Part shown: positions 25,658-63,715 of the stretch, piece by piece
How positions within the stretch are numbered: the stretch's first letter is position 1
Layout of the letters: each line of letters opens with the position of its first letter
Assembly (NCBI GenBank): GCA_943736015.1
Contig: OX031063.1
Location: forward strand, 36,610,172 to 36,674,171
Reading direction: 5' to 3'
Length of the DNA stretch: 64,000 nucleotides
From: Tridacna crocea
Lineage: Eukaryota; Mollusca; Bivalvia; Cardiida; Cardiidae
Program-made: the position numbers and the translations under genes
Notes under the pieces: model-generated
Told to the model about the DNA's origin: nothing
The model's input: only the letters and a program-made list of their open reading frames with translations
Database searches by the model: none

Positions 25658-25925
25658 ATTTGGCCGGAAACACGCGAAAAGGGTCATTCGGATATTTACG
25701 TAGAGTGTGGTCCCGGATTAGCCTGCGCAGTCCGCGCAGGCTAATCCGAGACGGCACTTTACGACTACATTAGATTTTGTCCCACAGTATATTTGTGTGA
25801 AACACAAAAATCACACACGATTGGAAAGTGTCGTCTCGGATCAGCTGCCCCAACTGCGCAGGTTGATCCGAAAAAGAACTTTACGAAAATGTCGGAATGC
25901 CCCTATTCGTGTGTTGCTGGTCATT
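25658..25925 (+). mobile_element. Family 4 multi-palindrome element, diverged copy
   Basis: Outer ends 'ggccggaaacacgcgaaaagggtcattcgg' and 'cggaatgcccctattcgtgtgttgctgg' are inverted repeats. Inside are two separate palindromes: CGGATTAGCCTGCGCAG / TCCGCGCAGGCTAATCCG near 25715 and a weaker one near 25845, split by a 'ttagattttgtcc...gtatatttgtg' spacer. Confidence 0.78.
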
Positions 25926-26393
25926 CTATCCATTCACCTTTCTTTAGATCGTTTTTATTTTTATACCCAATCCATCCATGTTTTCGTATATCTTACCGTT
26001 TCATCCTATCTCTTCCATTCCGTATGTATCTAATAAGCAAAAAAGTGCATACAAGTATAAACGGTTTAGAAACAAAGTCCTACCGTATGACGGATCCAAC
26101 CCCATGCAGACAAGTGCTAAGTATATGAGAACATTCGGAGAGAGTTTCGTCATCCTGAAACTGTATAAAATTAAGATTTACAAACACACGAACATATCAA
26201 GCGATTACAATGCCGACAAACAAATCAAAGGGGTTAACCATTTAAATCTTATAACTCCATTCAAACCAAATGAAAAGTATAAATATGGCTATGGTGATTT
26301 CCTAGTTTAAAATTCTAAAAAAAAGAAGTACATGTATGAAAAAATAAGATAAAATTTTAACGTGAAAGCCAACTCCAAGATCTTTCTCTGTCT

Positions 26394-26425
26394 GTCTATC
26401 TGTCTGTCTTTCTTTTCCTTTCTTC

Positions 26426-26465
<40 letters not shown>

Positions 26466-26466
26466 A
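26394..26466. repeat. TCTG/TTTC tetranucleotide microsatellite
   Basis: CTGT units grade into about ten TTTC units, with further degenerate TTCC/TTCG units to about 26560. Confidence 0.92.
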
Positions 26467-26937
26467 TCAACTATGTTTCAAATTTAACACATATAATCCA
26501 TATTCTTCATTCTTTAGTTCGATCGTTCCTTCGGTCTTTCCTTCGTTCCTTCCATCATTGTTTTCATTTCCCTTACCCTGTTTTTTTTTGTGTGCAGATA
26601 GTAAATAGACTGAAATACTTACAGAAGTTTATTTTGCTTCAAGAGATCAGACAGTTAAACTATAAATTTAATCAAAAAGGAAACTGACCATATATTAAAA
26701 TAAGCGTAAGAGGCTTTTTATTTAAAATCTTCAAACAGACCAAGAAAAATTAATTCCGACTACATGACATTTTTTTCAGTCATATTTTGTTGGAGTTGGA
26801 TTGAGCGTAGTTCCGTCGGAAAATGCGCCCTGTCGAGAATTTTATTTTTTTGTAATTCCCTGGTCTTTTATAAAAAATAATGACGAATTACGCAGTTAAT
26901 GGTTCCCCACAATAAATCTCGATTAATCCTACTATAT

Positions 26938-27205
26938 ATTATGGCTTGCGACAAGCGGAAAGAGACATTTGGACATTTGCGTAAAGTGTCATCTCGGATC
27001 AGCCTGCGCAGTCCGCGCTGGCTTATCCAAGGCGGCACATTACGACTACATTTGATTTTGTGCTTAAGCAGACTTGCGCAAAACAGAAAATTACATAAAA
27101 ACGGAAAGCGTAGTTTCTGATTAGCCTGCGTTGACTGCGCAGGCTGATCCGAGATGACACTTTACGCAGATGTCCGAATGCCCCTTTTTGCGTGTTGCAA
27201 ACCAG
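26938..27205 (+). mobile_element. Family 4 multi-palindrome element
   Basis: Starts ATGGCTTGCGACAAGCGG and ends with the complementary GTGTTGCAAACCA. Two internal palindromic cores lie near 27003 (CAGCCTGCGCAGTCCGCGC) and 27125. The spacer 'aaacagaaaattacataaaaacgg' is shared with the other copies. Confidence 0.8.
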
Positions 27206-28071
27206 TTATTGTTATACTTTGCAGGGAAAAGCCTAAGTGACAAGATCATTTGATCTGCATTACAAGTAGGTTGTGCAAGACATCTTGCAGATTTAATTGA
27301 TCAATGAAAAGAAATAGGGCAGGCAAAAGAAAAAAAAAGAAGGCCTAAAATGTACGGATATTTGAAAAGTGACACCTTTGGGGACTCAAACTGAAGAGAC
27401 CTGGTGAAAAATAATTTCGACAATATTTTCATCTTTGGACTCATACTTTCGCATATTGTTGAGAATTGAATTTTTCTGATTAGATAAGATAATTACAAAA
27501 CACGTTATTGGAGAAGAAGTAGTTGCTACTACAAATAGTGGGTCTGAAAAGAAATGTAGGTTGTACAAGGAATAGAGGGTAAGGTAACGTTAAAGAAAGT
27601 TACCAAATATAAGAAAGCATGTATTTAAGCATTCCCAAATTACTAAATATTCAGTGGAAACTATATAATACGGACAAATACGTCAAAAGACAGCTTACAC
27701 AGCTAAGCCGTAAAAAAGAACGGTTATTTTATTTTCAATGGGAAATGGTTAGATAAGGTTTATTGGTTGAATTCAGAATCCCTATTGACCTGCCATGGCA
27801 GGGCTCCGTTTAACTAAGGTACATGTAGTTACGAACAAAATGTGCGTAAGGTTTATGTAACTATAGTATCATGGGTGGGATTTTTTTTCTGCCACGAAAT
27901 ACATGATAACTGTCATGATTATTTTAGAAAACTATGCGATAAATCAAAGTTTCTGGGTCATTTTCTTTCATTTTATTTCAATCAAATTTCCAGAAAACCC
28001 CGATTTATCGCAGTAGTTTTTAAATAATCATGGTAGTAATCTCATGAAAGAAATATGCCACCGTACTATAG
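27206..28071. other. Non-coding interval
   Basis: AT-rich sequence with no gene or recognised repeat. It contains a weak inverted pair around 27880-28030 ('catgataactgtcatgattatttt' versus 'aataatcatggtag'). Confidence 0.45.
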
Positions 28072-28299
28072 TTAACTCTTTACCACACGAGAAAATTTTA
28101 GACTGGTCCAAATTGAAAGCATTTGCAGACGACAAAATAAAGGTGACTGAAAAATAAAATTTGTTCTGGGAAGGGTAGAAAACATTGTGGGAAAAGGAGA
28201 AAATGCTGGTTACCAGCATTTTCTCCTTTTCCAACAGTGTTTTCAAAAAGCTTCTTTCTCCGGGGCGTCAAAAGTAGGGATTGTGTGGTAATGGGTTAA
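28072..28299 (-). mobile_element. Family 1 TTAA palindromic element, full copy
   Basis: TTAACTCTTTACCACACGA to GTGTGGTAATGGGTTAA, 228 bp. The hairpin is perfect except one change in an outer arm (TTCCAACAGTG). Confidence 0.9.
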
Positions 28300-28344
28300 G
28301 TAAAAATTTTGTTCGTAACTACCTCAGTAAAACTGGGCCGAAAT

Positions 28345-29244: not shown

Positions 29245-29349
29245 TGCAATCCTGCTACAAAAGTTAAACAAAACTGGCTTTCAAACCGATAGGAAAGACC
29301 CAAATAGTGTTATTTCAAAGTTATTTCTTTGCAGAAAATCTTTCCTTAT

Positions 29350-29425
29350 CGTACATTGTAGGTCCAAGATCAGGTTGCACGTTCTGTGCAGGCTGATCTA
29401 CACTGCCCGCAAAAGGTCAGTATAC
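29350..29425 (+). repeat. Family 3 core fragment
   Basis: 'gtaggtccaagatcaggttgcacgttctgtgcaggctgatctacactgcccgc'. Confidence 0.6.
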
Positions 29426-32051: not shown

Positions 32052-32269
32052 AACCCGTTTTTCACAAAGCATAATTGAAGTAGATTTTTCATTCCACGAT
32101 TTATAGAATACAATCGATTTGTTAAGATATAATCTTGACTTATGTATTGGCCGGATGTATATATACGCCCTTCTCTTTTGCTCAACCAAATCCATTGGGC
32201 TGTTTTGGGGAAATAAATATACAGTTCCTCTACACAAGTTACATGTTAGAATCGGGCAGAAGACGGTGC

Positions 32270-32332
32270 TGAGCAAGGATCAGGCTATACGTAATGTGCA
32301 GTCTGTTCTTGATCTATGACGACCTCAAAATC
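32270..32332 (+). repeat. Family 3 core fragment
   Basis: 'gcaaggatcaggctatacgtaatgtgcagtctgttcttgatctatgacg'. A further fragment lies at about 32490-32525. Confidence 0.5.
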
Positions 32333-32405: not shown

Positions 32406-32487
32406 ACGCCGGTTTACTTCCAAAACCTCGTAACTACAGCTTGAAACAAGCTGTAGTTACGCGGTTTTGGAAGTAAATCGACGATTA
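32406..32487. mobile_element. Palindrome family 2, copy 5
   Basis: CGCCGGTTTACTTCCAAAAC...GTTTTGGAAGTAAATCGACG. The TTCCAAAA variant is matched in both arms. Confidence 0.85.
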
Positions 32488-33055: not shown

Positions 33056-33246
33056 TTAACTGCCTAAGGAGGCAAAACAGAAAGCCTGCAAAATCTTGTC
33101 GGTGGCCCATATCTAGTCCCCACATAGCACAAAAAAAAAAAACAAATTTGAATTTGAACAAATATTATGTGTATTATAGCTACCTTTAAGTTGTCTATAA
33201 TTTACATATAAAATTCATCTGTAGGTTTGATAGTTTTTCATGCTAC

Positions 33247-33460
33247 TTAACCCTTATCCTGCTAAATAACTAAAAATAAAATTTTCAATTCGATAGTCAA
33301 ACCCCAAAAATTGTAATTTCATAGGTATGTTTCGAAGAAAAAAAATCTCCAGGTCGGACAGCGTAGATCCAAGATCAGACTGCACGTTTTGTGCAGTCTG
33401 ATCTTGATCTACGCTGTCCGCAAAACGTCTGTGAGGCGCGATAAGCAGCCAAAGTGTTAA
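33247..33460 (-). mobile_element. TTAA palindrome family 3, full reference copy
   Basis: Starts TTAACCCTTATCCTGCTAAA and ends GCAGCCAAAGTGTTAA, with TTAA on both sides; 214 bp. Central hairpin GGACAGCGTAGATCCAAGAT...ATCTTGATCTACGCTGTCC with TGCACGTTTTGTGCA at the tip. The AGCGTAG variant is present in both arms. Confidence 0.88.
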
Positions 33461-34200: not shown

Positions 34201-34322
34201 ATCGAATTTTTTTTAATCCACGTTCACACAGCTTTCTAGATTCTACAGTTTGTAAAGTTATAAGGATACATCTTTAACTGTTTTCCCATATCAAATAGGA
34301 TCCACATGAACCCTGAATCCAT

Positions 34323-34540
34323 ATGGTCTGTGAAAAGGGAATTTCATGTATCTGCAAAGAGTGTTGACCCAGGTCAGTCTGTGCAATCCGCACCGGCTGA
34401 CCTGTGTCAAAAAGATTTTGCTTCGGTTCAATTTTTTCGTTTGTCAAAGAACCTTTCTACTTCAGAATTCAGCCGGTTGCGGTTAAAAAAAACGGATTTT
34501 ATGGATTAACAATTTTATGAGGACCTGCTTGGCACGCTGC
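34323..34540 (+). repeat. Dispersed repeat family 6, long copy
   Basis: 'ggtctgtgaaaagggaatttcatgtatctgcaaag', core GGTCAGTCTGTGCAATCCGC / ACCGGCTGACC, then 'gattttatggattaacaattttatga' and 'cttggcacgctgc'. Confidence 0.7.
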
Positions 34541-34541
34541 T

Positions 34542-34769
34542 TTAACCCAATACCACACAATCCCTACCTTTGACGGCCCTGAGAAAGGAGCCTTTAGAAA
34601 ACATCGTGGGAAAAGGAGAAAATGCTGTAACCAGCATTTTCTCCTTTTCCCACAATGTTTTCTACCCTTCACAAAACCAATTTCAAATTTTCAGTCACTT
34701 TTATTTTGTCTTCTGCAAATGCTTTCGATTTAGACAAGCCAAATTTTTTGTCGTTTGGTAAAGTGTTAA
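34542..34769 (+). mobile_element. Family 1 TTAA palindromic element, full copy
   Basis: TTAACCCAATACCACACAA to GTTTGGTAAAGTGTTAA, 228 bp. One base is deleted at the hairpin tip (TGCTGTAACCAGCA). Confidence 0.9.
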
Positions 34770-34962
34770 AGCGATACATTAAACCCCTTTAGCCAGAGCA
34801 TGGCTCGCGTAGGCTGAGATTGTACAATGAATACACGAGTCTGATCTTGGCTTAAAGCTGTTCGCTCTTTAGGAAGATATTTTGAATAAGTAATCATCAA
34901 AATTTGCATCTTTTTCGTCCTCCGACAAAAAATTAATTTCATTCGAGTTTACGTCCCCGACT

Positions 34963-36786: not shown

Positions 36787-37055
36787 CATATGGCTTGCGA
36801 AACGCGAAAAGGGGCATTCGGACATTGCAGAAAGTGTCGTCTCGGATCAGCCTGCGCAGTCCGCACAGGGTAGTCCAAGACGGCACTTTACGACTACATT
36901 AGATTTTGTACTACAGTAGACTTGCGTAAAACAGAAAATTACGTAGAAACGGAAAGTGTCGTTTCGGATTAGCCTGCGCGAACTGCGCAGGCTGATCCGA
37001 GACGGAACTTTACGCAAATGTCCGAATGCTACTTTTCGCGTCTTGTAGGCCATAT
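36787..37055 (+). mobile_element. Family 4 multi-palindrome element, full copy
   Basis: Ends CATATGGCTTGCGAAACGCG and GCGTCTTGTAGGCCATAT. Two palindromic cores lie near 36846 and 36967, the second being GCCTGCGCGAACTGCGCAGGC. Spacer 'aaaacagaaaattacgtagaaacggaaagtg'. Confidence 0.85.
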
Positions 37056-37067: not shown

Positions 37068-37295
37068 CTTGGCAGAAAGAGGCTAAAAGTCATCCATTAT
37101 ATCAAGCAGGCAACACTTATTACTTATAGATCCGTAAAATCCATTTAGTCCAACAATAGATTGAATTATAAGGTAGAATGGTCCTGTGACATGCAGAAAA
37201 ATGACCTATAGAGAAAAGTATTGAGCTATATTAGCCATCGCAGATTGCGCAGGCTGCCCTGGGTCGATACCATCTGCGGTGCATTAAACCCGTAG
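37068..37295 (-). repeat. Dispersed repeat family 6, long inverted-order copy
   Basis: 'ttatagatccgtaaaatccatttagtcc', 'aaggtagaatggtcctgtgac' and 'attgcgcaggctgccctgggtcg' are family words in reverse order. Confidence 0.6.
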
Positions 37296-38762: not shown

Positions 38763-38850
38763 ATATCGTCGGTTTACTTGAAAAACCTTATAACTACAGC
38801 TTGTTTCAAGCTGTAGTTACGAGGTTTTTGATGTAAACCGATGACATCTA
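38763..38850. mobile_element. Palindrome family 2, copy 6
   Basis: ATATCGTCGGTTTACTTG...TGTAAACCGATGACAT with CAGCTTGTTTCAAGCTG tip. Confidence 0.86.
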
Positions 38851-40374: not shown

Positions 40375-40464
40375 GTATAAAAACTTAAAATGCTAATTTA
40401 TTCAGTTATATGAGATGCAGATCCTGCAATATTTGTAAAGCCTTTTCAGCTAGCACACAATACA

Positions 40465-40655
40465 TTAACCCTTACGCTGCTACGTGCGACTCACTGACAT
40501 GTTGCGGACAGTATAGCTCAAGATCAGACCGCACAGAACAGGCAGTCTGATCTTTGATTTACACTGTCCGATATGGAGATATCATTCCCTTAAACACAAC
40601 TTTAAAACGTCACAATATTTCATGATTTTATCATCTAATTAAAAATTAACTTAAG
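40465..40655 (+). mobile_element. TTAA palindrome family 3, copy
   Basis: TTAACCCTTACGCTGCTACG left; hairpin GGACAGTATAGCTCAAGATC...GATTTACACTGTCC; ends near 'attaacttaag', where the next copy starts. Confidence 0.8.
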
Positions 40656-40762
40656 CGCGGCTCGCTGACCATTTGTGGACAGTATAGATCAAGATCAGAC
40701 TGCACAGAACGTGCAGTCTGATTTTTGGTCTACACGATTTTACTTATAAAGCAGGAGAAGTG
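40656..40762 (+). mobile_element. TTAA palindrome family 3, truncated adjacent copy
   Basis: 'gcgcggctcgctgacc', 'ggacagtatagatcaagatcagac', TGCACAGAACGTGCA, 'tctgatttttggtctacac', ending 'cttataaagcaggag'. It is directly abutted to the previous copy. Confidence 0.75.
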
Positions 40763-40827: not shown

Positions 40828-41058
40828 TTAAAAACCCTTTACCAAACGACAAAATTTCTAGACTAGTCCAAATTGAAAGCACTTGCAGACTACAGAATAA
40901 ATGTAACTCAAAATCTGAAATTTGTTTCTAGCAGGGTAGAAAACATTGTGGGAAAAGGAGAAAATGCTGGTTACCAGCATTTTCTCCTTTTCCAACAATG
41001 TTTTCAAAAGGTTTCTTTCTCAGAGTCGTTTAAAGTCGGGATTGTGTTTTAAAAGAGC
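40828..41058 (-). mobile_element. Family 1 element
   Basis: 'aaacccctttaccaaacgac'-like left end, hairpin with GCTGGTTACCAGC tip, 'gattgtgttttaaaagagctg' right end. Confidence 0.82.
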
Positions 41059-41084: not shown

Positions 41085-41290
41085 CCAAGCAGGTATTGTA
41101 TTACACAAGTACCGATCTACAGAATCCAGTTTGTCCAAAAATCGACTAAATAATGAGGTGGACTGGCACTTTGACATGCAGAAAATTAAAATCAAAAAAT
41201 ATTTCGACACAGGTCAGCCTGCGAGGACTGTGTAAGCTACCTAGGCTGACCTTACTATGAACATTTTGCAGACGCAGTAACCACGATTCA
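41085..41290 (-). repeat. Dispersed repeat family 6, inverted-order copy
   Basis: 'acagaatccagtttgtccaaaa', 'aatgaggtggactggcactttgacatgcagaaa', 'ggtcagcctgcgaggactg', and 'gcagacgcagtaa'. Confidence 0.6.
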
Positions 41291-41537
41291 CAGGGCACAG
41301 GTCTTACCCTTTAGCATAGTTTGAGGGCTGCATTAAAAAAGAGCAAGCGATGTAGATATAAGATCAGACCCCGTTTTTTGTAATCTGATCTTGATCTATG
41401 CCGTCCTCAAAACCCCATGTATGCACGAAATTAATGGCGCTAAATAGGATAATCGTGTAACAAGGAGATTAAGTTTTTTGTTTTCTCAACCTTTCATTAC
41501 AATTATCTTATCCATTTCTTCTTATCCGTTGCTTCTC

Positions 41538-41759
41538 TTAACCCTTAGCAACCCCCAGGCTGCTAAGCGCGACTCACTGACCTTTTTCGCACAGTGTAGA
41601 TCAAGATCAGACTGCACAGAACGTGCAGTCTGATCTTGGATCTACACTGTCCGTTAAGGAGATGTTATTCCCAAAATCATAACTTTGAAATGGTAGTATT
41701 TTGGGTTATACTATCAGAATGAAAATTTCATTTTAGCTATCTAAAGCAGGATAAGGATC
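41538..41759 (+). mobile_element. TTAA palindrome family 3, full copy
   Basis: TTAACCCTTAGCAACCCCCA and 'gctgctaagcgcgactcactgacc' left; hairpin CACAGTGTAGATCAAGATCA with TGCACAGAACGTGCA tip and inverted arm to 'acactgtccg'; 'gctatctaaagcaggataagg' right. Confidence 0.87.
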
Positions 41760-41789
41760 AAGTGAACGATACAAAAGGTTGTATGAAGT

Positions 41790-42650: not shown

Positions 42651-42882
42651 TCTGAGAGCAACAGAAAGATAGACACGTAGACGGACGGGTGAACGAACAG
42701 AGAGAGAGAGACAGAGAGACAGACAAATAATTTCACACTATTATTCAGTAGATCTACCACGATCGTATTCATAATTATGAGCGACGCTGTGAGAAAACTG
42801 CACAGTCTGCGCAGACTGACATGGCTCGAGAATTTTTGCTGTTTGTAACTTTTTTCTGCTTGACCAGAGACCGTTTTACTAT

Positions 42883-43149
42883 AATGGCCTGCACCATGAG
42901 GAAAGGAACATTCGAACATTTGCGTAAACTGTCATCTGAGATCAGCCTGCACAGTCTGCGCAGGCCAATCCGAGCCGACTCTTTCCGTTTTTATGTAATT
43001 TTCTGTTTTGCGCGTGTCTGCTAACAGACAAAACCCAATGTAGTCGTAAAGTGCCGTCTCGGATCAGCCTGCGCGGACTGCGCAGGCTGATCCGAGACGA
43101 CATTTTACGCAAATGTCCGAATGCCCCTTTTCGTGTGTTGCAAGCCAAT
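42883..43149 (+). mobile_element. Family 4 multi-palindrome element, full copy
   Basis: Ends AATGGCCTGCACCATGAGGA and GTGTTGCAAGCCAATT. Cores: CAGCCTGCACAGTCTGCGCAG near 42945 (weaker) and TCAGCCTGCGCGGACTGCG near 43065. Its start overlaps a family 6 core at about 42800-42830. Confidence 0.83.
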
Positions 43150-43703
43150 TATCATGAGGACTATTTTACATCATGATACGGTCTGTTCGTGGACAAAAGG
43201 ATTTCACTGGTCCATTAGCAAGTCATGACTTGCTTTCTATCCATCACGGAGATTTTTTAACCCCCCAAATTCGAGAACGAGGCTTATATGTATCACATAC
43301 CTGTATTGATAAGAAAAGTCCAATGAACAACTGCACAAATATTGTTGACACAAGTTGTATAGATCATTTACATAGACGAGTGCATAATTTGTGTGTGTCA
43401 CGCCTAAAACTTCACACTTAAACAGCGTATCCGGGTTGAAGCCCCCCTGTTGTAAAAGGTTTATTGCACTCAAACCTGAACTTCTAAAACTGGCAAATAA
43501 GACACTCCAGGCTTCTAAACACGTACAGTGTACATCAAAGATCGGACTGCATACTGTTTATAATCTGGGATCCGGGATTTATTTTGACCACAAATTATGG
43601 TGTATGCTTGGTCAGCACACATACTTTTTGCTATGAACACGTACTTTCTACCGACAGAAGTTTGTCATTTTGATACGGTGTTCGCAACAAGGGATAGTAT
43701 CTC

Positions 43704-43830
43704 TCTAACCTTTAAGCTACTAAGATTATCTCACTGACCTTTTGCAGATATTATAGAACTAGATCAGACTGCACAGAAGGTGTAGTGTGATCTTGGACCT
43801 ACATTGTCCAGTAAGGGGATATTTTTTCCA
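43704..43830 (+). repeat. Family 3 copy, partial
   Basis: 'taacctttaagctactaag', 'agatcagactgcacagaaggtg', 'gatcttggacctacattgtcc'. Confidence 0.7.
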
Positions 43831-46164: not shown

Positions 46165-46232
46165 AATAACAGTGCAGATTACAGATCAGACCGCACAAAA
46201 CGTGGTGTCTCATCTTTGATCTACCCCGTCCT
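46165..46232 (+). repeat. Family 3 core fragment
   Basis: 'acagtgcagattacagatcagaccgcacaaaacgtggtgtctcatctttgatctacc'. Confidence 0.55.
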
Positions 46233-46809
46233 ATTTCCGAAACCGCCAAAGATAAGAGCAACCGAAAAACTGCAATTAATTGGCCTTATTATTTGACTGA
46301 GAATGCATTTTTGGTGATATTGGCGCTCGACGGGTGAAATATAATTCATAATGCATGTGTATTATTATGTATGACAGCAAGGCTTTGCTCAAGTCTTCCT
46401 GCTCGTTTCAAATTTCTTCCTTATTCTAAACTCGAATTTCCATTTTGATTTTATGTAAGGGGAAAATAAGTGCCTACAAAAATTTGTCAAAAAAGTCCCA
46501 TTATAAACCTGTTTCATCTATAAAAACCCCTCCCATTTCCCTCCTATTCTTACACTATTTAACACTGCCTTATATTTTACATTACGGGTGATTGAGCTTA
46601 GGTTAATTCTAAAAGTATTTCAGATATATCCTAGCGGCCAGTGAAACTTTCTACTAGTATGCCCTATATGAGCTTCGTTATTGACTTCGTGAAAAGCATT
46701 CAATCCAAGCATATCACTTCTTTGATCCACTTTACGAAAATTGTACGCAAAAAAAATCATCAAGTTGAGAAAAAGAAAACTGGGATACTTCGGGATTGAT
46801 ATCATCGAA

Positions 46810-49500
46810 ATTTAAGGGCTTTGATCAAACAGTCTGTTCAGAGGAAGAGCTTTGTTCATGCAGTGGTTTGGGAGGGGAGCTTTGTTCAGACAGTAGCTTC
46901 AAAAGGAAAAAAAATAGGAAAAGCAGAAAACACTGAGTTCTGTTGGTTTAAACAAAAGCTTTGTCCATACAGTGGGTTCAGAGAGGAGCTTCATTCATTA
47001 AGTTAGTTCGACAGAAGTTTTGTTCATAAAGTAGGTTCAGAGAGAAGCTTTGCTTGCTCACACAGTGGGTCATATAGGACTTCTTTCATAGAGTGGGTTC
47101 AGATATAACATTTGTTCACACATTTGATCAAGAGAGATGCTTCGTTTTTACTCTGGGTTCAGAGGGGAGGTTTGTTCATACAATTGGTTCATAGAGGAAG
47201 TTTGCTCATACAGTGGGTTCAACGAGAAGCAGGTGTACAGATCTTTTGGAGTATTCAAAGAGAAGGCTTAATCAACAAAGGTTTCAGGCTTGAGATTTGG
47301 TCATACAGTGGGTTCGTATGGGGCTTTGTACCTAAAACGATTTCAGAGAAAAAGTTTTGGTGATATTGTGGGTTCGTATAGGAGCTTACTTTGTGCAGAG
47401 GGCTCACAGCAGCGCTTTAGTCACACCACAGATTCAGGAACGACAACGAATTATACATTGGGTTCAGAGCGGAGCTTTTGTCATACAATGGGTTAAAAGT
47501 GGACCTTCGTTCCTACAAAAGATTCAGAGAAGAGCTTAGGGCATGCAGTGAGTTCAAATAGGAATATGGGTTATACCATGTGTTCAGAGAGGACCTTTTG
47601 GTCATACGGCTGGTCTAAAAAGAAACTTCCTTTGACAGAAGCGTTCAGACACAGCTCTGGCTCAAAGAGGAGTTTTGGTTACTTAGTGTCCTGAGAGAAG
47701 AGCTTTTGTCATGTAAATGGTAAAGACGGTGCATTGGTCTTTCAGTTGGTTGGTTCAGAGAGGACCTTTGGTCCTTAAATGAGTTCACAGAAAATCTTTG
47801 GTCACACAATTCTTTTAGAGAGAAGCTTGGATCATACAGTGTCTCCAGAGAGAGAGGCATTATTCATACAGAACTTAGGTAATGCAAAGGGATCATATAG
47901 GAATTTTGGTCATACAGTTCACTTAGAGAGTCGCTCAGGTCACACGGTGGAATGAGAGAAGGGCTTCGGTCTTAAAATAGACCCAGTAAAGCACGGTTCG
48001 TTCAAAAAGGAACTTACAAACGTAAGTCATACAATGGTTTCAATAGAACCTTTTACTTAGTGGGTTTAGAGGAATGCTGTATCAGACTTCAACTTTTTGT
48101 GAAATCTTTTTACCAACCTTTAAAAAGAGACCAAATTTCTGTTGGAAAAAAACAAGATGATGTAAACTGCTCAGTTGTTTCATTCAGGCGCTTTGGTCAT
48201 ATATTGGGTTGAAACAGAGCTTAGCATACAGAGATTTCATACAAAGTTTTTGGTCATACAGTTCGTTCAGAGAAGAGCTTAGTCACGAAGTTTCTTCATG
48301 GAAGAACTTTTGTCATACAGAGAGACGCTTTGGTCATACAGTGGTTTAATGGAGGAGATTTGGCTAAACAATGGGTTGATAGAGAGCTTAAGTCAGCCAT
48401 TGGGTTGATAGAGAGCTTAGCAATTTCTTAGCTTTGGTCATACTGTTGGTTCAGAGAAGAGTTTTCGTAATGCAGTTTCTTTATAGAGGAGCTTTGGTCA
48501 TGTTATCTCTTCATAAAGGTGCTTTGGTCATACGGTGTCATACGGTGTTCACATAGAGGAGCTTTGGTATTACAGTAGTCTCACAGAGGATTTTTGGTCA
48601 TAAAGTGGTTTCATAGAGGAGCTTTGGTCATACAGTGGTCTCAAAGAGGAGGTTTGGTCATACAGTGGTCTCATAGAGGAGCTTTGGTAATACAGTGGTT
48701 TCATAGAGGAGCTTTGGTCATACAGTTGTTTCATACAGGAGCTTTGCTTAGGCATTTAGTTGATAGAGAGCTTTGGCCATACAGCAATTTCATAGAGGAG
48801 CTTTGGTCATACAATGGTTTCATAGAGGATTTTTTGTCACACAGTGGTTTCATACAGGAGCTTTGGTCATACAATGGTTTCATAGAGGAGCTTTGCTTAG
48901 ACATTGGGTTGATAGAGAGCTTTGGTCATACAGCAATTTCATGGAGAACCTGTAGTCAAGCGGTTGGTTCATAGAGGATCTTTGGCCATACAGCAATTTC
49001 ATAGAGAACCTTTGGTCATTCAGTTCGTTCATAGGACCATACACTGGTTCCAAAGAGGAGCTTTGGTCATACGATGGTTCAATGTATGAGCTTCTGTCAC
49101 ACATTGGTTACATGGGGGAGCTTTGGTCTTACAGTGTGTTCATAAAGGATATTTAGCAATACAATGGGTTGATGTTGAGCTTCGGTCATACAATGGGTTC
49201 ACAGTCAAGCTATCAATGTATTCTTAATCTAGAGGGAAGTTTTGGAGATAAAATTGGAGATAGCAGCATTTGTTATGTTCATAGAAGCGTTTTGGCCTGC
49301 AGTAGGTTGATAGAGGAATTTTGCTCAAACACTGGGTTGGGAGAGGAGATTTGGTCATACAGTGGGTACATAGAGGTGTTTTGGTCATATTACAGTCTCA
49401 AACTAGAACTTTGGTCGTACATTTGGTTAATAGAAATGCTTTACTATACAGTCGGTTCAATGAGGAGCATACGACCGAGGAAGCTTCAGTGAAAAGAGGG
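46810..49500 (+). repeat. 30-bp minisatellite array, unit 1 (about 2.7 kb)
   Basis: Tandem copies of a unit close to GAGGAGCTTTGGTCATACAG plus TGGTTTCATA. Copies are highly divergent from 46.8 to 48.5 kb and cleanest at about 48.55-48.95 kb, where the period is exactly 30 bp. Because 30 is a multiple of three and the unit lacks stops, three frames stay open locally (for example a repeating WSYNGFIEEL on the plus strand and a QSSSMKPLYD-like repeat on the minus). Nothing else suggests coding: stops and 29/31-bp units break all frames along the array, and I see no start context or splice signals. Confidence 0.88.
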
Positions 49501-50866: not shown

Positions 50867-51291
50867 AGATCTATTTCCACTGGTGATTTTAGTAATCAGC
50901 GTGGCAATGTAACATATTGTAAAACCATACATGATACATTCCTCGCATAGAAATATAGTGAAAATAATATGATGATCCCTAGCAAATTTTGAGTAGTATA
51001 CATTCTAAATCTAAGTAGTATTATGTAAACCTTTTTAACTATTAGTGACTTTTTGGCTGATTGTAGCAAAGTGATAGAATGTATTTCGCGCTGAGTTTTT
51101 ATTGTTTATGCTATGCTTAAATTATGATTGCCAAACGATGGAAAAGTGACTAACTCATTACGAACAAATGTCCGACTGGAGAGTGTTTGTAAATACAATG
51201 TATACTGCATCATTCTCATAAGTAGACAATAATTTGTGATCACCTACGTTTAAAAAATCTGACAATATTTCTGCAAGCTCAAAATTCTCTT

Positions 51292-51415
51292 AACTAGGTT
51301 GCTGAATGCGAATCAGAGACCTTTTTGTGGACAGTGTAGATTCAGATTAAAAGGCATAGAACATGCAGTCCGATCTTGAGTCTATACAGTCCGATAAGAA
51401 GATATTTTCAAAATA
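51292..51415 (+). repeat. Family 3 copy, decayed
   Basis: 'cttaactaggttgctgaatgcg', 'ggacagtgtagattcagatt', 'catgcagtccgatcttgagtctatacagtccgataaga'. The duplicated copy is at 58637-58755. Confidence 0.7.
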
Positions 51416-51597
51416 GCATTGTAACACCGACCTTTGCGTTTTTTACCATCTGTTTTAGGTTATGCACAGTTAGGCTAAGTTTGGTGTTGGCACGAGTAAT
51501 TTTCTACCTATGGAATGCTGGGTAGATAAAATGGACCTTTTTGATTCGTGAAACCAGCCGAAACATTGCTTTCGAGGCTGATTTTGCAATAATTAGC

Positions 51598-51715
51598 ACG
51601 AAATTAGCGGACACTGTATATCCAAGATCAGACTGCACATTCTGTGCTGTCTGATCGTGATCTACATTGTCTGCAAAAACCACTTAAGGCAGATGGAACA
51701 AAGCCCTTAACGGGT
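51598..51715 (-). repeat. Family 3 copy, decayed
   Basis: 'ggacactgtatatccaagatcagactgcacattctgtgctgtctgatcgtgatctacattgtctgc' and 'cccttaacgggtt'. Confidence 0.65.
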
Positions 51716-52260: not shown

Positions 52261-52476
52261 TACATATGAATAGACAGACTAATCTTTTAAACTTCCTCAA
52301 ACGACGAACGTTAAGGCTGGTCAAAATAGACAACATTTGAAGATGACACGTCTAATGTGCCCCCTAATGACTGGTTTTGTTTTAAAGGTCAGGAACATAC
52401 ATGTAGTTGGAAATAGAGAAAATATTGGTTCAGGGGTGTAAAAACTCGGGATGGTTTTGCAATGAGTTCAGGGGAA

Positions 52477-52563
52477 TATATCGTCGGTTTACTTCGAAAA
52501 CCTCGTAACTACAGCATGTGACAAGCTGTAGTTACGAGATTTTAGAAGAAAACCGACGATATA
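52477..52563. mobile_element. Palindrome family 2, copy 7
   Basis: ATATATCGTCGGTTTACTTC...GAAAACCGACGATATATA; tip CAGCATGTGACAAGCTG. Single here, but two copies at the matching place in unit 2. Confidence 0.88.
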
Positions 52564-52568
52564 TAGTT

Positions 52569-53850: not shown

Positions 53851-54035
53851 TTAGCCATTACCAGACGACAAAATTTTAGACCGTTCCAAATTGAAACAAA
53901 TTGCAGACGACATTTTAAAATGTATCTAAAATGAAAAATAAGTGATCTATATGGTAGAAAAGATTGTGAGAAAGGAGAAATTGCTTGTTACAAACAATTT
54001 CTCCTTTTTAGATGGAATTGATTTTAAAAATTTCC
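53851..54035 (-). mobile_element. Family 1 copy nested in the 1.8-kb element
   Basis: 'tagccattaccagacgacaaaattttagaccg', 'gattgtgagaaaggagaaattgcttgttacaaacaatttctcctttt'. The right end is lost. Confidence 0.75.
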
Positions 54036-54054
54036 TTCTATGATTCCATGTGAA

Positions 54055-55150
54055 ATAGTGTGCACCAAGGCACAAAGCCAAAATATGACCCCAAGGGGAT
54101 AATTTTAATTATTTTTATAAAGGGTCACTAGATGATGCTACATGCAAAATATGAATGCTCTAGCCTTTATGGTTTGTCACAAATAAATTTGTAAAAGATT
54201 TCCTTCTTTGTTTCTATGTAAAATAGGGTGCGCCCGGGCAGAGCCCAAATATGACCGCAGAGGGATAATTCTAGCAATTTTAGAAGATTATCAGATTTTG
54301 CTACATAGCAAATATGAATGCTCTAGCCATTACGGTTTGTCAGAAAAAGATTTATTAAAGGTTTCCTTCTTTGTTTCTATGTAAAATAGGGTGTGCCCGG
54401 GCAAAGCCCAAATATGACCCAAAAGGAGTAATTTTAACGATTTTGGTAAGGGGTCACCCAATAATGCTTCAAACAAAATATGAACACCCTCCGCCTTATG
54501 GTTTGTCACAAGAAGATTTTTAAAGATTGTAAAATAGGGTGCGCCCGGGCAGAGCCCAAATATGACCGCAGAAGGATAATTTCAACAATTTTGGTAGAAG
54601 ATCATCAGTTAATGCTACACACTAAATAGGAATGTTCTAGCCATTATGATTTGTAACCAGAAGAAGTTTTAAAGATTTCCTTCTAAATTTCTATGTAAAA
54701 TAGGGTGCGCCCGGGCAAAGCCCAAATATGACCCCATGGGAATGATTTTAACAATTTTGGTAAGGGGTCACCCAATGATGTTTCAAACAAAATATGAATG
54801 CTCCCAACCTTATGTTTTGTCACAAGAAGATTTTTAAAGATTTTAAAATAGGGTGCGCCCGGGCAGAGCCCAAATATGACAGCAGAGGAATAATTTTAAC
54901 AAATTTGGTAGAGGATCATCAGATAATGCTACATACCAAATATGAATGCTCTAGCCATTATGGTTTGTCAGAAGAAGATTTTTTAAAACTTTCCTTCTTT
55001 GTTTCTATGTAAAATAGGGTGCGCCCGGGCAAAGCCCAAATATGACCCCAGGGGAATAATTTTAACAATTTTGGTAAAGGGTCACCCAATGATGCTTCAT
55101 ACAAAATATGAACGCTCCCGGCCTTATGGTTTGTCACAAGAAGATTTTTA
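54055..55150 (+). repeat. Higher-order tandem repeat (about 312-bp dimer)
   Basis: 'gcgcccgggcagagcccaaa' occurs at about 54231, 54541 and 54856; the sister form 'gcccgggcaaagcccaaa' occurs at about 54394, 54709 and 55021. The two forms alternate, with spacings near 150-165 bp, so a two-monomer unit has been amplified at least three times. Confidence 0.85.
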
Positions 55151-55317
55151 AAGATTTTTTCCATTTTCATTTTTTTTTCCATGGCAACCAGAGTTTTTGT
55201 TGGAATTAAATTCTTTTAACAATTTTTGTAGAGCTTCACCCAAGGAACATTCCTGCCAAGTTTTATCAAGATTGGCCTTCTGGTTTTGGAGGAGAAGATT
55301 TTTAAAGAAATTGTTAA

Positions 55318-55355: not shown

Positions 55356-55975
55356 CCGGACGATGACCGGTCACAATAGCTCCCCCTGAGCACGTTGTGC
55401 TCAGGTGAGCTAAAAACAGCATCATACGGTGTATCTCGAGTATATTACTGATTCAGTATTGAGTAAAACAATTTTAACGGATATTTCATCTTCAAAAAAC
55501 ATTAATGGGCATCGATTCTGTATTTCGTCAAACAGATCCATATTTTATCTCCAACAAACACTATCCTGCCCGAAATCCTACTTACACCTCTTTCTCTTTG
55601 TGGTAAGGAGGGGAGAAGGAAAGAGCTTGTAGTTTGTTTTTAACTTCCATCTGACTGAAAGAAAAGATTAATATTATCAATTATCAACAAACGTTTTAAA
55701 AATTAGAGTCCACATTTGATACCACAACCGTCCACAAGCGTATCTGAAAACGATATATTGCTGTCCATAGTTGTGCTTGGTTGGAAGGGGTACCTTTTTT
55801 TTCTTTTTAAGGATTTCTTCTTTTGACTATTGTTATTGGGCCCTCTTGTGTATTTTGTTTATTCGATAGAATTATGATATATCAAATCACTAACAAAGCA
55901 AGAATTCAAGCAAGAGCCAATTTGTCAATAGCCAATTGTTTGTCTGCATCGGTAAGAATTGTCTTCTGATTACAA

Positions 55976-56168
55976 TTAACCCTTAAGCCGCTAAGCGCGA
56001 GTTACTGACGTTTTGCTGAGAGTGTAAATAAAGATCATACTGCACAGAATGTGCAGTCTGATCTTGGACCTAAACTGTCTGATAAGGAGATTTTCGTTCT
56101 AAAAGAGAAAGAATAAAATAACATTTTTCGGGTTGTCACAATCAAATTGAAAGTTTCATTTCAGTTAT
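55976..56168 (+). mobile_element. TTAA palindrome family 3, copy
   Basis: TTAACCCTTAAGCCGCTAAG left; 'gagagtgtaaataaagatcatactgcac' and 'gtgcagtctgatcttggacc' arms; it runs directly into a family 7 copy. Absent from unit 2. Confidence 0.8.
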
Positions 56169-56536: not shown

Positions 56537-56929
56537 ACAGGGTAACGGTTAAGTATAAATCTTTCGCTGCGAAGTTAATGATTCAGTATTTTTCTTAAAG
56601 TCTCAGAAATTCCAAATGATGATGATTTTGGTAATATTTCCGAATCAGAAGGGTGTAGATCAAAGATGAGACTGCACGTTCTGTGCGGACGGGTCTCTAA
56701 ATACGCCGTCAGAAAAAGCTATTCAATTCGCCATTGGTAGGGAATAGGTTAACAACTACATTACAAATTTAAAAAAAAAATACTCAGAAGCAATGAAAAC
56801 GCCGTGAAAAAGCAGATATCCAAAATAATGCTTTTCTGAATAACTGAAAGTTCACTAAAAACTCTGAAATTGAAGTTTACGCGGTATGTGGAATGTCAAA
56901 GGCAAATGCTTTAAGACTAAACAACCGTT

Positions 56930-57400
56930 TCATTAGAGGAGCTTTGGTCATACAGTGGTCTCGGAGAAAAGCTTTGGTCAAACAGTGGTCCCATAGAGAA
57001 GCTTTGGTCACACAGTGGTCCCAGAGAGGAGCTTTGGTCATACAGTCGTCTTAGAGAGGAGCTTTGGTCATACAGTGGTCTCAGAGAGGAGCTTTGGTCA
57101 TACAGTGGTCTTCATAGAGGAGCTTTGGTAATACAGTGGTCTCATACAGGATCTTTGGCCATACAGTGGTCTCATAGAGGAGCTTTGATCATACAGTGTT
57201 TTTTTATAGAGGAGCTTTGGTCATACAGTGATCTCAGAGAGAAGCTTTGGTCATACAGTGGTCTCAGAGAGGAGCTTTGTCATACAGTGGTCTCAGATTG
57301 GTTACATGGGTGAGCTTCGGTCTTACAGTTGGGTTCATAAAGGATCATTAGTCTTACATTGGGTTGATATTGAGCTTTGTTTATACAGTGGGTTCACAAT
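56930..57400 (+). repeat. 30-bp minisatellite array, unit 2
   Basis: About fifteen copies of GAGGAGCTTTGGTCATACAG plus a TGGTCTCAGA-type 10-mer, in exact 30-bp register at 56940-57300. It is homologous to the 48.5-49.2 kb part of unit 1 but much shorter. Decayed flank homologous to 49.2-49.56 kb continues to about 57780. Confidence 0.9.
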
Positions 57401-57930: not shown

Positions 57931-58990
57931 ACGAATTGATTTTACTGTGAAGTTTCACTATTCACTACGTTTATTAAGTGAATTTTTTACACGTTTTCTG
58001 GTTTAAAAAAATTGAGTATGCTGAGGAAGTAAAATTTCCCTTCTGAGTGCCCTAATTCGGTGAAATCTGACGTCACTGGGAACTGACGTCACTGACACCT
58101 TAGTAATATGTGTTAAGACGTAAAGCTTGGAACATAATCTTGATGTCAATCTTGATCGAAGCCGCCCTTTTGGATTGTTGTGCTGATAATGTAGTCATGT
58201 ATACGGGGCTCCCAAAAGGGAAACTACTTTTACGTTGCCTTTACCAGTGTACATGATATAAATGCTCGGAGCATATTATCCAATCAGATAACGAGAAAAT
58301 TCTTTGCAATATACTATTTCTTTATATATATTCTACATTTAAGTAGTATTATGTTAACATTTTTACTGATTAGTGACTATTTGTCTAATCGTGGAAAAGT
58401 TGCCTTATGAATATTGTTGTAATCAAGAATATATGTCGCACTGTGTTTTTATTGCTTATGCTGCGTTTTTATCTTTGCCAAACGATGGCCAAGTGAATTA
58501 ACTCATTTCGAACAAATGTCCGACTAAAGAGTGTTTCAAAATAGAATATATACTGCATCATTCTCATAAGTAAACAATAATTTGTGATCACCTATGTTTA
58601 AAAAATCTCTTAATATTTCTGCAAGCTCAAAATTCTCTTAACCCTGAGGTTGCTGAGTTGGATTCAAAGACCTTTCTGTTGACAGTGTAGATTAAGATTA
58701 AAAGGCACAGAACGTACAGTCTGATCATGAAACTATACAGTCCGGTAAGAAGACAATTTCCGTCAAAAATAGCATTGTAATAGCAACCTATGGGTTTTTT
58801 ACCATCTGCTTGGAAGTTTTAGAAAGTTAAGGGGTAAAAATAAACATTTTCAGTCTTTTATGCACATTTTTGGTGTTGGCATTAGTAATATTCTACTCAT
58901 GGAATACTGGGTAGATAAAGTGGACCTGTACGATTCGTGAAAACTGCCGACACAGTGCTTTCGAGGCTGATTTTGTAATAATTTGCACAA
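57931..58990 (+). repeat. Duplication unit 2 body, homologous to 50.18-51.6 kb
   Basis: Long colinear matches such as 'tttcccttctgagtgccctaattcggtgaaatct', 'tgcatcattctcataagta', 'tcgaggctgattttg'. No coding frame. The copy of the family 3 palindrome is at 58637-58755. Confidence 0.85.
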
Positions 58991-59269: not shown

Positions 59270-59306
<37 letters not shown>

Positions 59307-59555: not shown

Positions 59556-59645
59556 GATATCGTCGGTTTACTTCGAAAACCTCGTAACTAAAGCATACAT
59601 GTGACAAGCTGTAGTTACGAAGTTGTCGAAGTAAACCGACGCTAT
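59556..59645. mobile_element. Palindrome family 2, copy 8
   Basis: GATATCGTCGGTTTACTTCG...AAGTAAACCGACGCTATA; tip AGCATACATGTGACAAGCTG. Confidence 0.87.
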
Positions 59646-59735
59646 ATATCGGCGGTTTACTTCGAAAACCTCGTAACTACAGCATACAAGTGACAAGCTG
59701 TAGTTACGAGGTTTTCGAAGTAAACCGACGATAAA
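59646..59735. mobile_element. Palindrome family 2, copy 9 (tandem with copy 8)
   Basis: TATATCGGCGGTTTACTTCG...AAGTAAACCGACGATAA. It directly follows copy 8 and shares its four extra tip bases (CATACAAGTGACAAG), so it arose by tandem duplication of copy 8. Confidence 0.87.
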
Positions 59736-60002: not shown

Positions 60003-60800
60003 TTGTTATCTGCGATGACAGATTTTTGCTACACAGTCATTCCTACGATTGCGAATAAAATGTTGGTATCGATATCGACTGCAGATCGAATCACAAATAA
60101 GAGCAGGCATGTACATACTTAAAAATACGAACGCTTAATCAAACTGCAAACAACAATCAAAAAGAATTTTTAAAAAAAAAAACTTAAAAAAAAAAAGAAT
60201 TTTAAAAAATTATAAATAGAACTGAGGAACTCCAAGAAAAAACGTATCATACAGTGTATCTCAAGTATATTACTGATTCAGTATTGAGTAAAACAAGTTC
60301 GATGTTAATAAACATTAATTGGCATCGATTCATAATTCTGTTAAACAGATCAACACATCTATATTTTATCTTCAACAAACACAATCCTGCCCGAAATCCT
60401 ACTTGTAAACACCTCTTTGTTGTAAGCGGGAGGGGGGGGGGGGGCTTTAAATCTTTTGCTGCCAAGTTAATGATTCCGTATTTTTTTTAAAGTCTTGATT
60501 TTGGTTACATTTCAGAATCAGGAAGATGGAGATCAAAGATGAGACTACACGTTCTATGCAGTCTGGTCTCAATATACGCCGTCGAGAAAAGCTATTCAGT
60601 TCACCATTGGTAGGGAAATGGTTAACAATTACATAACGAATTAAGAAATACTATTCAGATACAATGAAAATACATTGAAAATGCAGATATCAGAATTACT
60701 GCGTTTCTGAATAATTAAAAGTTAACTGTGAGCTTTGATATCTAAGTTTACGCGGTATATGAATTGTCAAAGGCAAATGCTATAAGACTAAACACCGTCT
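60003..60800 (+). repeat. End of duplication unit 2
   Basis: Colinear with 53445-53625, then 55412-55620, then 56560-56915 of unit 1, the intervening insertions being absent. It ends near 'aaggcaaatgctataagactaaacacc', matching 56900-56922. Confidence 0.85.
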
Positions 60801-61809: not shown

Positions 61810-62280
61810 CTGAAATAAAATGCTAAAGTTGTATTGATTTTAAAAAAATCGAACTATTTCTGTGAAATAAAAGTAAGAAAAAAAAAGGAAAACAACAACA
61901 AAAAAAACTAAATATATAAGAAATATATTATCATAATCTCCATGCAAAAATACAAAAAAACTACTGTTGGAAACATCTGGAAGCATCTCTCTCTCTCTAG
62001 TAGATGCAGAATGGAAGTCTTAACTACGTGTAAAGTTCTCCATGAAATAAGTCCTACTGCAACGTCTATAACAACTATACAATGTAGGATTAAAACCTTT
62101 AGATTACTGCACTTAGTATGAATGGACATAATCAAAGCATAGTCTGATCCAGATAATATTTTGACTGGAGAGTTTAAGAAGCACGCACGGCATAGTAAAT
62201 TCAAAAGAAAGAAACTTCTGGTATCAGCTGTATGATCTTTAAATGTGTTGCCCTTGATGTTCAGTGAGCTGAAGCTGCTG

Positions 62281-62340
62281 AGGACTTCTTTAAGGTGCTG
62301 AGGAATTCTTTAAGACGCTGAGGACTTCTTTAAGAGTGTC
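62281..62340. repeat. Three tandem 20-bp repeats
   Basis: Exact-period copies of AGGACTTCTTTAAGGTGCTG with few changes at 62281, 62301 and 62321. The 20-bp period shifts the reading frame at each copy, and the minus-strand frame meets its stop inside it. Confidence 0.85.
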
Positions 62341-62412
62341 CACACCTGCTTCGAGTTGATCGACAAGGCAACGCAAGATCTTTAACTTTGTGAGTCTATC
62401 TAAGGAACCTAC

Positions 62413-62511
62413 CTGTTCTGTTGAGCCACCATCACCCATTACTTTATTCACGCACATCTGCATGTTTCGTATTTGTTCCTCAGCAAAAGACTTACATACC
62501 TGTGCTGTCAT
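62413..62511 (-). CDS. Candidate upstream exon of the MIEAP-like gene (coiled coil)
   Basis: A strong acceptor (TTTTCTCCTTCACCAG) precedes 62511, and GTAGGT at 62412-62407 could be the donor, giving 33 codons in phase 0: MTAQVCKSFAEEQIRNMQMC, VNKVMGDGGSTEQ. The same frame remains open beyond that donor as LDRLTKLKILRCLVDQLEAG and VDTLKEVLSVLKN, a leucine-rich amphipathic stretch, before stopping in the 20-bp repeats. SPATA18-like proteins carry a coiled coil upstream of the C-terminal domain, so either form would fit. The start of the gene is not identified. Confidence 0.42.
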
Positions 62512-62600
62512 CTGGTGAAGGAGAAAATTATAAAAATACTTACACTGGTTAATTGAAAAGCAAATTCAGGCCATACGTTTTCAAAAGAACGAGCTGAATA

Positions 62601-62836
62601 ATGACCTACAACACACGAAAATGGGCATACGAACATTTGCGTAAAGTGTCGTTTCGGATCTGCCTGCGCAATCCGCACAGACTGATCAGAAACGACACTT
62701 TCCGTTTTTTATGTAATTTTCTGTTTTGCGCAAGTCTACTGTAGCACACAATATAATGTAGTCGTAAAGTGCCCTCTCGGATTAGCCTGCGCGGACTGTC
62801 AAGACTCCGAATGTCTCTTTTCGCGTGTTGTATGTC
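62601..62836 (+). mobile_element. Family 4 multi-palindrome element, shortened copy
   Basis: Ends 'gacctacaacacacgaaaatgggcatacg' and 'gaatgtctcttttcgcgtgttgtatgtcc'. First core GCCTGCGCAATCCGCACAG; the second core has lost its right arm. Confidence 0.78.
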
Positions 62837-63519
62837 CAAAGAAAAGTAAAATCACGGTCTCAACAACCGTAAAGTAGCGTTTTTCGGAGTAACTGAATGC
62901 GCTGGATTTTGACTTACTCCTTGGAATTATTTTCGAAGGAGTAGATGTAGATATTTGCAGCTGGTCGAATATGCAGACATGTTGATTCTACGGGACCCCT
63001 GCAAACCTATTGGCGAACATGTTAAGCCGTCAATCTTGATCAGTCCTTATCTTCTAAATAAGTTAAATAAAATTTTCAAAGCGACAGTAAAAACTCCTAT
63101 AATGTTATTTCAAACTTATTTTGGATAAAAATCCCTCCTTATCGGACAAATTTGATCTTTATCAACAATGTTCTCGATGTTGAGTCGTGCCTAGCAGTTT
63201 AAGGGTTGAAGATAGTTCTTGGTATTTCATAACTCATTTTGTTGATGATACGTTTTCAGGACTTAATGGAATAGAAGCTGACCAAAGTTTAGAACTATAA
63301 AAAGCAAACGATAAATATAGACAGAATTAGGGCTGGTGGCATATTTTAACTGTGGCTGCACATATTTGTTCATGGAACATCCAAGGGAAACAATTGGTAA
63401 AACTGATGTCTCAGACAGGAAATAAATGTAATGTACTCGTATTGTGTTATTGGCAGAAGCACTCACGGGTGAACTCTCTGTTTTCGGTCCTGATGGAGTC
63501 GAACGTTACATATTTTTAT
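62837..63519. other. Non-coding interval
   Basis: No gene. A faint family 3-like end ('ccctccttatcggacaaatttgatctttatc') lies near 63136. Confidence 0.45.
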
Positions 63520-63574
63520 GGAACTGATGGAGACAGATGGGCAAGGCTATGTCAAAAGGCGGTCTAATGCAACT

Positions 63575-63715
63575 GCAACAAGTGACAATCTCAAACAAAC
63601 TGTGCAATACGTGCAGGCTGACCCGGGTCGAGAATTTTTACAGTTGGTCAATTTCAAAGGACCAGTCTGTTTTGCAATCAGTTTTTGGACCAAGTGTTTT
63701 TTTATTGATGCATAA
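63575..63715 (+). repeat. Dispersed repeat family 6, partial
   Basis: 'caaactgtgcaatacgtgcaggctgacccgggtcgagaatttttacagttgg', then 'aaaggaccagtc' and 'ttattgatgcataattatataac'. Confidence 0.55.

Follow-up and report, generated by a model that had tools for sequence, protein, structure and literature searches.

A 64,000-nt stretch of the Tridacna crocea genome (contig OX031063.1, positions 36,610,172 to 36,674,171; hereafter the window) contains several families of miniature inverted-repeat transposable elements (MITEs) that differ in their ends and share one palindromic hairpin inside them. A sequence-only reading had singled out three of these, families 3, 4, and 6 (F3, F4, and F6), as MITEs with a common hairpin tip. 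Their MITE-like character is borne out: they are short (~200 to 280 bp), noncoding, and multicopy (11 copies of F3, 5 of F4, and 10 loci of F6), and terminal inverted repeats (TIRs) are found in some copies. The tip is likewise shared beyond chance. With at most one mismatch, the motif TCAGMCTGCRCAG has 26 matches in the 64 kb, compared with a mean of 0.06 and a maximum of 2 in shuffled sequences. The motif was counted on both strands, and all element counts come from this one 64-kb window.

The full tip is 27 nt long (13 + 4 + 10), its spacer measuring 4 bases where 2 or 3 had been proposed. Allowing up to three substitutions per half, the double tip pattern occurs at 25 places in the window. 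The described families account for 22 of them (21 inside the model loci given below and 37231 in an F6 copy), and those at 35446, 35455, and 43542 are weak or chance matches. In a few other matches to TCAGMCTGCRCAG, e.g., at 3561 and 33009, the second half of the tip is gone. The tip caps a longer, imperfect palindrome of ~70 nt. A search with a covariance model of this palindrome yields 31 loci at E ≤ 1e-5, among them the 29 of its training set; the E values are rough. The hairpin sits roughly 55 to 58 nt inside the element end, near one or both ends. The sequence-only reading had placed 12 of its 13 tips within 7 bases of their position; the other, at 24478, belongs to a diverged copy that the pattern misses and the model finds (24457-24528, E = 9.5e-7). 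The range of 25.7 to 63.7 kb given for the shared tip was too narrow, as matches span 3.5 to 62.7 kb.

F3 starts with TTAACCCTTAGGCTGCTAAG (consensus TTAACCCTTA...), which fits the terminal motif CC[C/T]T. The hairpin is found close to one end, the remainder of the element forms a tail, and the far end, where kept, reads ...TAAGGGTTAA, with the element stopping at ...GCAGGATAAGGGTTAA. A TTAA starts 56 to 60 nt before 9 of the 14 tips of F3 and of two groups classed with it, F51 and F7, against a background of 0.008 per base, in a range picked post hoc; none of the 15 F4 and F6 tips has a TTAA at that distance. For this count, the start of the tip in diverged copies was judged by eye, and ambiguous consensus positions were filled by hand, as they were for the arm and tail comparisons below. 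Few copies of this TTAA class keep both ends. The F3 copy at 33245-33460 (minus strand; tip 33375-33401) has TTAA on both sides, which, together with the TTAA position, upholds the assignment of F3 as a TTAA element. It is also the only one of three F3 copies in which a TIR stands out from shuffled sequence (9, 186, and 946 of 1,000 shuffles reach it). Judged by their ends, F3, F7, and an F3-like family, F3b, are putative piggyBac-type (TTAA) MITEs, the ends of F3 and F7 resembling those of piggyBac MITEs. A Kolobok origin of F3 was considered and rejected: Kolobok elements are described as combining a TTAA duplication with 5'-RR termini (PMC9587614), and the termini of F3 are 5'-CC.

The best model match (92.7 bits) is the F3 copy at 41538-41763 (+; tip 41607-41633, hairpin 41584-41657), in which an insertion in the arm leaves the TTAA at 41538, 69 nt ahead of the tip. 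Further F3 copies lie at 5445-5656 (+; tip 5505-5531; found by pattern and model), 40464-40655 (+; tip 40524-40550), 55975-56168 (+; tip 56035-56061, TTAA 59 nt ahead; model), 43708-43836 (+; tip 43764-43790; model), and 29249-29421 (-; tip ending at 29396; pattern and model). A second, truncated copy stands beside that at 40464 (40638-40745, +; tip 40695-40721; model), and a diverged copy at 13856-13967 (+; hairpin 13891-13964) was found by the model outside its training set. The stretch 51290-51710 (no strand assigned) holds an F3b hairpin (51324-51396) and an inverted F51 hairpin (51604-51677) between two TTAA sites on its outer sides. It is one longer element or perhaps two abutting ones, because the F3b copy near 58640 (58638-58799, +; hairpin 58675-58747; model) is without the second hairpin. 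F7 has two copies with TTAACC ends, reading TTAACCTATT and TTAACCATTT: one at 56622-56752 (-; TTAACCTATTCCCTACC end; hairpin 56644-56716) and one at 60485-60625 (-; TTAACCATTTCCCTACC end; hairpin 60517-60589), neither with its far end set. Only the CC of the CC[C/T]T motif fits in F7, where two decayed copies give little to go by. Three more F3-type hairpins found by the model stand in other flanks, one at 46162-46235 (+; ends not identified) and two at 32257-32329 (-) and 41341-41411 (-), whose inner flanks resemble each other.

F4 elements are ~265 to 275 bp long and have long inverted arms with one hairpin in each. The F4 sites had been taken singly, but there are two tips per element, so that the sites 36846 and 36967 belong to a single element and mark its two ends; the TCAGMCTGCRCAG matches come in pairs at 25718/25854, 26999/27135, 36847/36983, and 42942/43078. 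The end sequence is TGGCTTGC, and most arms start close to TGGCYTGC, preceded by an AT-rich stretch. Two tips are present at 25660-25923 (+; tips 25718-25744 and another that ends at 25866), 26942-27204 (+; tips 26999-27025 and 27121-27147), 36789-37054 (+; tips 36847-36873 and 36969-36995), and 42878-43152 (-; tips 42942-42968 and 43064-43090). At 62609-62798 (-; tip 62659-62685; model), one arm is partly deleted.

F6 consists of a single hairpin followed by a tail. Copies are found at 4383-4609 (+; tip 4447-4473; model), 11862-11991 (+; tip 11927-11953; tail not delimited; model), and 34318-34806 (+; tip 34374-34400). The family had been described as lacking a clear TIR; this is so for two of the three copies tested, and the copy at 34318-34806 has a TIR on both sides (1, 600, and 565 of 1,000 shuffles reach it). 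The tail of that copy is split at a TTAA by an element of another family, P67 (34542-34769), and the F6 copy is therefore older than this P67 insertion. An F6-like element at 24415-24571 (no strand assigned; the hairpin found by the model at 24457) is palindromic along most of its length, an F6-type hairpin at 42770-42842 (-; pattern and model) adjoins an F4 element, and the copy at 3483-3609 (+; pattern) has lost half of its tip. Diverged copies with weak hairpin matches lie at 14350-14553 (+; E = 0.059), 6520-6721 (-; E = 0.66), 37124-37270 (-; E = 0.045), and 41140-41272 (-; E = 0.0079).

The likeness of the outer arms was scored against 1,000 shuffles in thirty comparisons in all, for which the F4 and F6 arms were cut by hand at 59 nt, so that their equal length with F3 is no evidence. 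For the whole outer arm, no shuffle reached the scores of F3-F7, F3-F51, and F4-F6; the numbers that did so were 2 for F3-F4, 3 for F3-F6, 5 for F7-F51, 31 for F6-F7, 50 for F6-F51, 106 for F4-F7, and 121 for F4-F51. When the inner 12 nt were removed, they were 0 (F3-F7), 1 (F4-F6), 6 (F6-F7), 8 (F3-F4), 11 (F3-F51), 15 (F3-F6), 17 (F7-F51), 47 (F6-F51), 124 (F4-F7), and 187 (F4-F51). Removal of the inner 22 nt left 5 for F3-F7, 5 for F6-F7, and 17 for F4-F6, the other seven pairs ranging from 142 to 656; the remaining outer 37 nt of F3 are unlike those of F4 (356) and F6 (209). The likeness of F3 to F4 and F6 fades ~22 nt outside the tip, and the shared block therefore measures about 22 + 27 + 22 nt. 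The outer parts of the three families had been called unrelated, which is wrong for F4 relative to F6, whose arms are alike along their length, and for F3 relative to the other two describes only what lies beyond those ~22 nt. F6 and F7 may retain a trace of likeness further out, which would favor descent and, among thirty comparisons, may also be chance. Tails showed no likeness in the ten pairs compared, four of them with P67 (smallest value, 93 of 500 shuffles). In both classes the hairpin stands almost equally far from the end: across 9 arms, the conserved part of F4 starts about 57 nt ahead of the tip, and the F3 and F7 arms start 59 nt ahead of it, TTAA included, the F6 end having been set by eye and the ends of F4 and F6 being known to within a few bases.

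In a FastTree phylogeny of 29 hairpins, 16 of F3/F7 type and 13 of F4/F6 type, none fell on the wrong side; three of the 16 TTAA-class rows had been classed by hairpin likeness rather than by their ends, which leaves 13 + 13 independent rows. Support for the split was 1.0 with the whole hairpin, 1.0 with the stems only, and 0.878 with the tips only. The fifth letter of the tip is A in 14 of the 16 TTAA-class hairpins (C in one and T in one) and C in 11 of the 13 F4/F6 hairpins (T in the other 2), and the tenth letter is A in all 16 of the former and G in 12 of the 13 latter (A in 1). Repeated exchange would mix the classes, and the exact split by end class therefore indicates divergence from one ancestor. 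The module exchange between MITEs put forward in the sequence-only reading is thus not sustained as a recurrent process; a single old swap of ends between the classes is possible. The outcome which that reading had held against itself, a single family with diverged flanks, largely describes these elements, though not wholly.

The hairpin has kept its pairing through two-sided changes. In an alignment of 29 hairpin rows (27 pairs, with the structure of a single F3 copy as the reference), paired cells made up 72.8%, compared to 64.6% in shuffled alignments and 28 to 38% with slid partners (0/500). Cells changed on both sides numbered 75 against 39.3 (0/500), and the covariation score was 0.258 against 0.147 (0/500), a test in which kin rows may beat shuffles without any structure. 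Substitution rates in tip and flank, the check proposed along with the shared tip, differ among the families in the window. For 8 of the 11 aligned F3 copies (three diverged ones dropped), pairwise difference was 0.110 in the tip, 0.288 in the outer arm, and 0.420 in the tail, and singletons made up 12 of 216 tip cells compared with 93 of 880 (Fisher P = 0.028). All 11 copies gave 0.195 for the tip, 0.185 and 0.282 for the stems, 0.352 for the outer arm, and 0.451 for the tail. The five F4 copies gave 0.160 and 0.211 for the tips, 0.223 and 0.258 for the outer arms, 0.207 for the middle, and 0.095 to 0.221 for the stems. The F6 alignment has 11 rows from 10 loci, and the 8 rows counted gave 0.362 for the tip, 0.431 and 0.384 for the stems, 0.343 for the outer arm, and 0.393 for the tail. 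Slow evolution of the tip thus marks F3 and is not common to all three families.

P67 is a TTAA family with TTAACCC[AT]TTACC ends, an F3-like layout, and an unrelated hairpin of ~72 nt near one end. Its copies include 10689-10902, 14891-15104, 28074-28286, 34542-34769 (228 bp), 40833-41053, 43905-44124, and 45673-45885, among others. In 10 of 12 copies, the hairpin differs by 0.056 and the flanks by 0.254 and 0.210, an effect of about fourfold (0.053, 0.268, and 0.211 with an eleventh copy), and singletons number 11 of 715 in the hairpin versus 103 of 1,562 in the flanks (Fisher P = 3.5e-8). This effect is stronger than that in the families with the shared hairpin, and it suggests that the hairpins of some TTAA MITEs here are constrained in multiplying lineages. 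Arm-to-arm correction was considered as the main cause of the likeness among P67 hairpins and was rejected on the counts of changed pairs, which in 18 copies (not oriented) were 66 one-sided, 8 two-sided and paired, and 6 two-sided and unpaired.

The definition of a MITE usually rests on its ends, the interior being regarded as unconstrained. The nearest published system among the literature matches is that of the Acropora CMITEs, which are described as TTAA MITEs of about 100 bp with CC[C/T]T ends and a 75-base internal region, linked to piggyBac-like transposons; their families differ in the TIRs and share the internal region, which is better conserved than the TIRs and whose role is left open in the account of these elements (PMC2872659). 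F3 and F7 are like CMITEs in kind, with TTAA and an inner block more common to the families than the ends. Here, too, families resemble one another more in the inner region than at the ends; within families such conservation holds for the F3 tip and not for the F4 and F6 tips. Compared with the CMITEs as described, the window elements are longer (~200 to 280 bp), and they are set apart by the ~70-nt palindrome, which also occurs in families whose ends lack TTAA. A MITE-like repeat of another bivalve, Lucina pectinata MITE-like repeat 1, is reported to be 210 bp long, with inverted repeats of 30 bp and a self-complementary segment of 77 bp (PMC4732748), a layout near that of F3, F6, and P67 when compared by description rather than by sequence. 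The MER6 MITE, reported to carry the V domain of short interspersed nuclear elements (SINEs), likewise has a conserved domain common to different kinds of mobile elements, although that domain is SINE derived (PMC6887750). A DNA-letter search of the open-license literature returned no paper titled on a mollusc repeat or MITE among its matches, and the window families were not found in print among the best topic matches in open-license text.

We propose that the families descend from one hairpin-bearing MITE ancestor and have split into two lineages, one with TTAA/CC... ends (F3, F3b, and F7; piggyBac type) and one with other ends (F4 and F6). The outer arms and tails would have diverged or been replaced, and the palindrome would have been retained, probably for mobility in cis; we give this account, taken as a whole, an even chance of being right. 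The palindrome may act as a twofold symmetric subterminal cis site for mobilization, bound by a dimer of a transposase or host factor. Such a need in cis, with a protein that binds, would be the likeliest explanation by analogy with known elements. What is observed is the common block, where it stands in the element, the two lineages, and the pairing retained through two-sided changes; the role in cis and the protein that would bind are inferred. A dimer of C-terminal domains of the piggyBac transposase is reported to bind a 19-bp palindromic internal repeat, which the structures show for just one of the two ends (PMC7351741), and in piggyBat, imperfect palindromes are reported to be bound inside the left end, several of them within the first ~120 bp (PMC11707139). 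The likeness lies in palindromes that stand inside the end of TTAA elements and are asymmetric between ends (PMC7351741, PMC11707139). Those sites, in contrast, are about 14 to 19 bp long, differ in sequence, and belong to transposase-coding elements, whereas the window palindrome is ~70 nt long, its elements are noncoding, and its binding is only putative. That the ends differ while a paired inner palindrome is shared points to a requirement in cis beyond the TIR, a question left unanswered in the description of the coral CMITEs (PMC2872659).

Several observations weigh against a palindrome kept for mobility. F3 and F6 have the hairpin at one end only, though such an arrangement would suit a piggyBac-like asymmetry of ends. 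The palindrome is far longer than the 19-bp piggyBac site (PMC7351741), and the subterminal sites of piggyBat are reported to restrain, not help, activity (PMC11707139). No piggyBac-type transposase was found in the 8 scanned of the 18 window open reading frames (ORFs) of at least 110 aa. In the 29-row alignment, neither the number of pairs with a double change (45/500) nor the number of pair types (238/500) stands out, and the double changes probably trace to a small number of events, many of them on the branch between the classes. In 8 copies of F3, the stems (0.195 and 0.266) are barely below the outer arm (0.288), and in F4 and F6 the tip does not clearly evolve more slowly than the flanks. 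The two-sided changes and the slower F3 tip are compatible with the selection on hairpin recognition suggested in the sequence-only reading, without establishing it.

Under plain common descent, all would be one old MITE family in which the flanks have decayed or given way to other sequence and the palindrome persists as an ancestral remnant without function. It agrees with hairpins that track their flanks without exception, with the likeness along the arm within F4-F6 and F3-F7 and even, across classes, for F6-F7 (31/1,000 for the whole arm and 5/1,000 without the inner 22 nt), and with the rates of the F4 and F6 tips. The slower tip of F3, pairing that held through two-sided changes between the classes, and P67, a TTAA family of the same layout in which the hairpin differs about fourfold less than the flanks, all argue against it, and we regard this account as possible but doubtful. 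If instead the hairpin had moved among MITE families by recombination, gene conversion, or nested insertion, the fading of likeness between F3 and F4/F6 ~22 nt outside the tip, the lack of likeness between any two tails compared, and the hairpins at 46162, 32257, and 41341 in other flanks would be in keeping with it. Such movement is hard to reconcile with a tree in which 0 of 29 hairpins lie in the wrong class, or with tip-to-end distances that are similar in both classes, and it appears quite improbable. It is also unlikely that one ~70-nt palindromic module, maintained by compensatory changes and held almost equally far from the element end, serves MITEs with different target sites and hence different transposases, either as a cross-superfamily cis element or through shared capture of a host factor.

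Selection at the level of the host, for an RNA hairpin as a source of small RNA or for the site of a chromatin factor, could draw on the very stable folding of the hairpins as single-stranded DNA (z of -9.6 to -12.8 in all four tested, one each from F3, F4, F6, and the unrelated P67). Against it, the window has no Rfam match at gathering thresholds, and the hairpins of F4 and F6 are not clearly protected from change; this explanation is very unlikely. Chance likeness of short GC-rich palindromes is refuted for the window. By itself, the tip can be found again when a collection is very large: the 27-nt tip in degenerate form had no matches in viral_contigs and matched five bacterial contigs in the 257-Gb genome_contigs, in 40-nt flanks that are, by eye, unlike those of the window's families. 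Against chance stand the 26 matches where 0.06 are expected, their common register, and the likeness that extends beyond the tip.

The window is rich in other repeats. Hairpins whose arms measure 18 bp, with no more than 3 mismatches, number 49 and belong to at least four sequence families. Near-perfect palindromes of ~85 nt (TATCGTCGGTTTACTTCGAAAACCTCGTAACTACAGC...) occur at 4207-4293, 4901-4983, 32407-32485, 38763-38847, 52476-52564, and 59557-59733 and seem to be whole elements. Tandem repeats of ~30 bp (..ATAGAGGAGCTTTGGTCATACAGTGG..) form similar arrays at 48537-49201 and 56929-57297, and a tandem unit of ~314 bp is present in 3.6 copies at 54022-55158. Among the ORFs, those at 22240-22611 (-) and 25030-25371 (-) give partial matches to F5/8 type C/NedA-like galactose-binding domains, of which only the second passes the curated cutoff. 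The ORF at 1592-2020 (+) encodes a tyrosine-recombinase domain (Pfam Phage_integrase, 1.1e-11) and is part of what we take to be, perhaps, a Crypton-type element.

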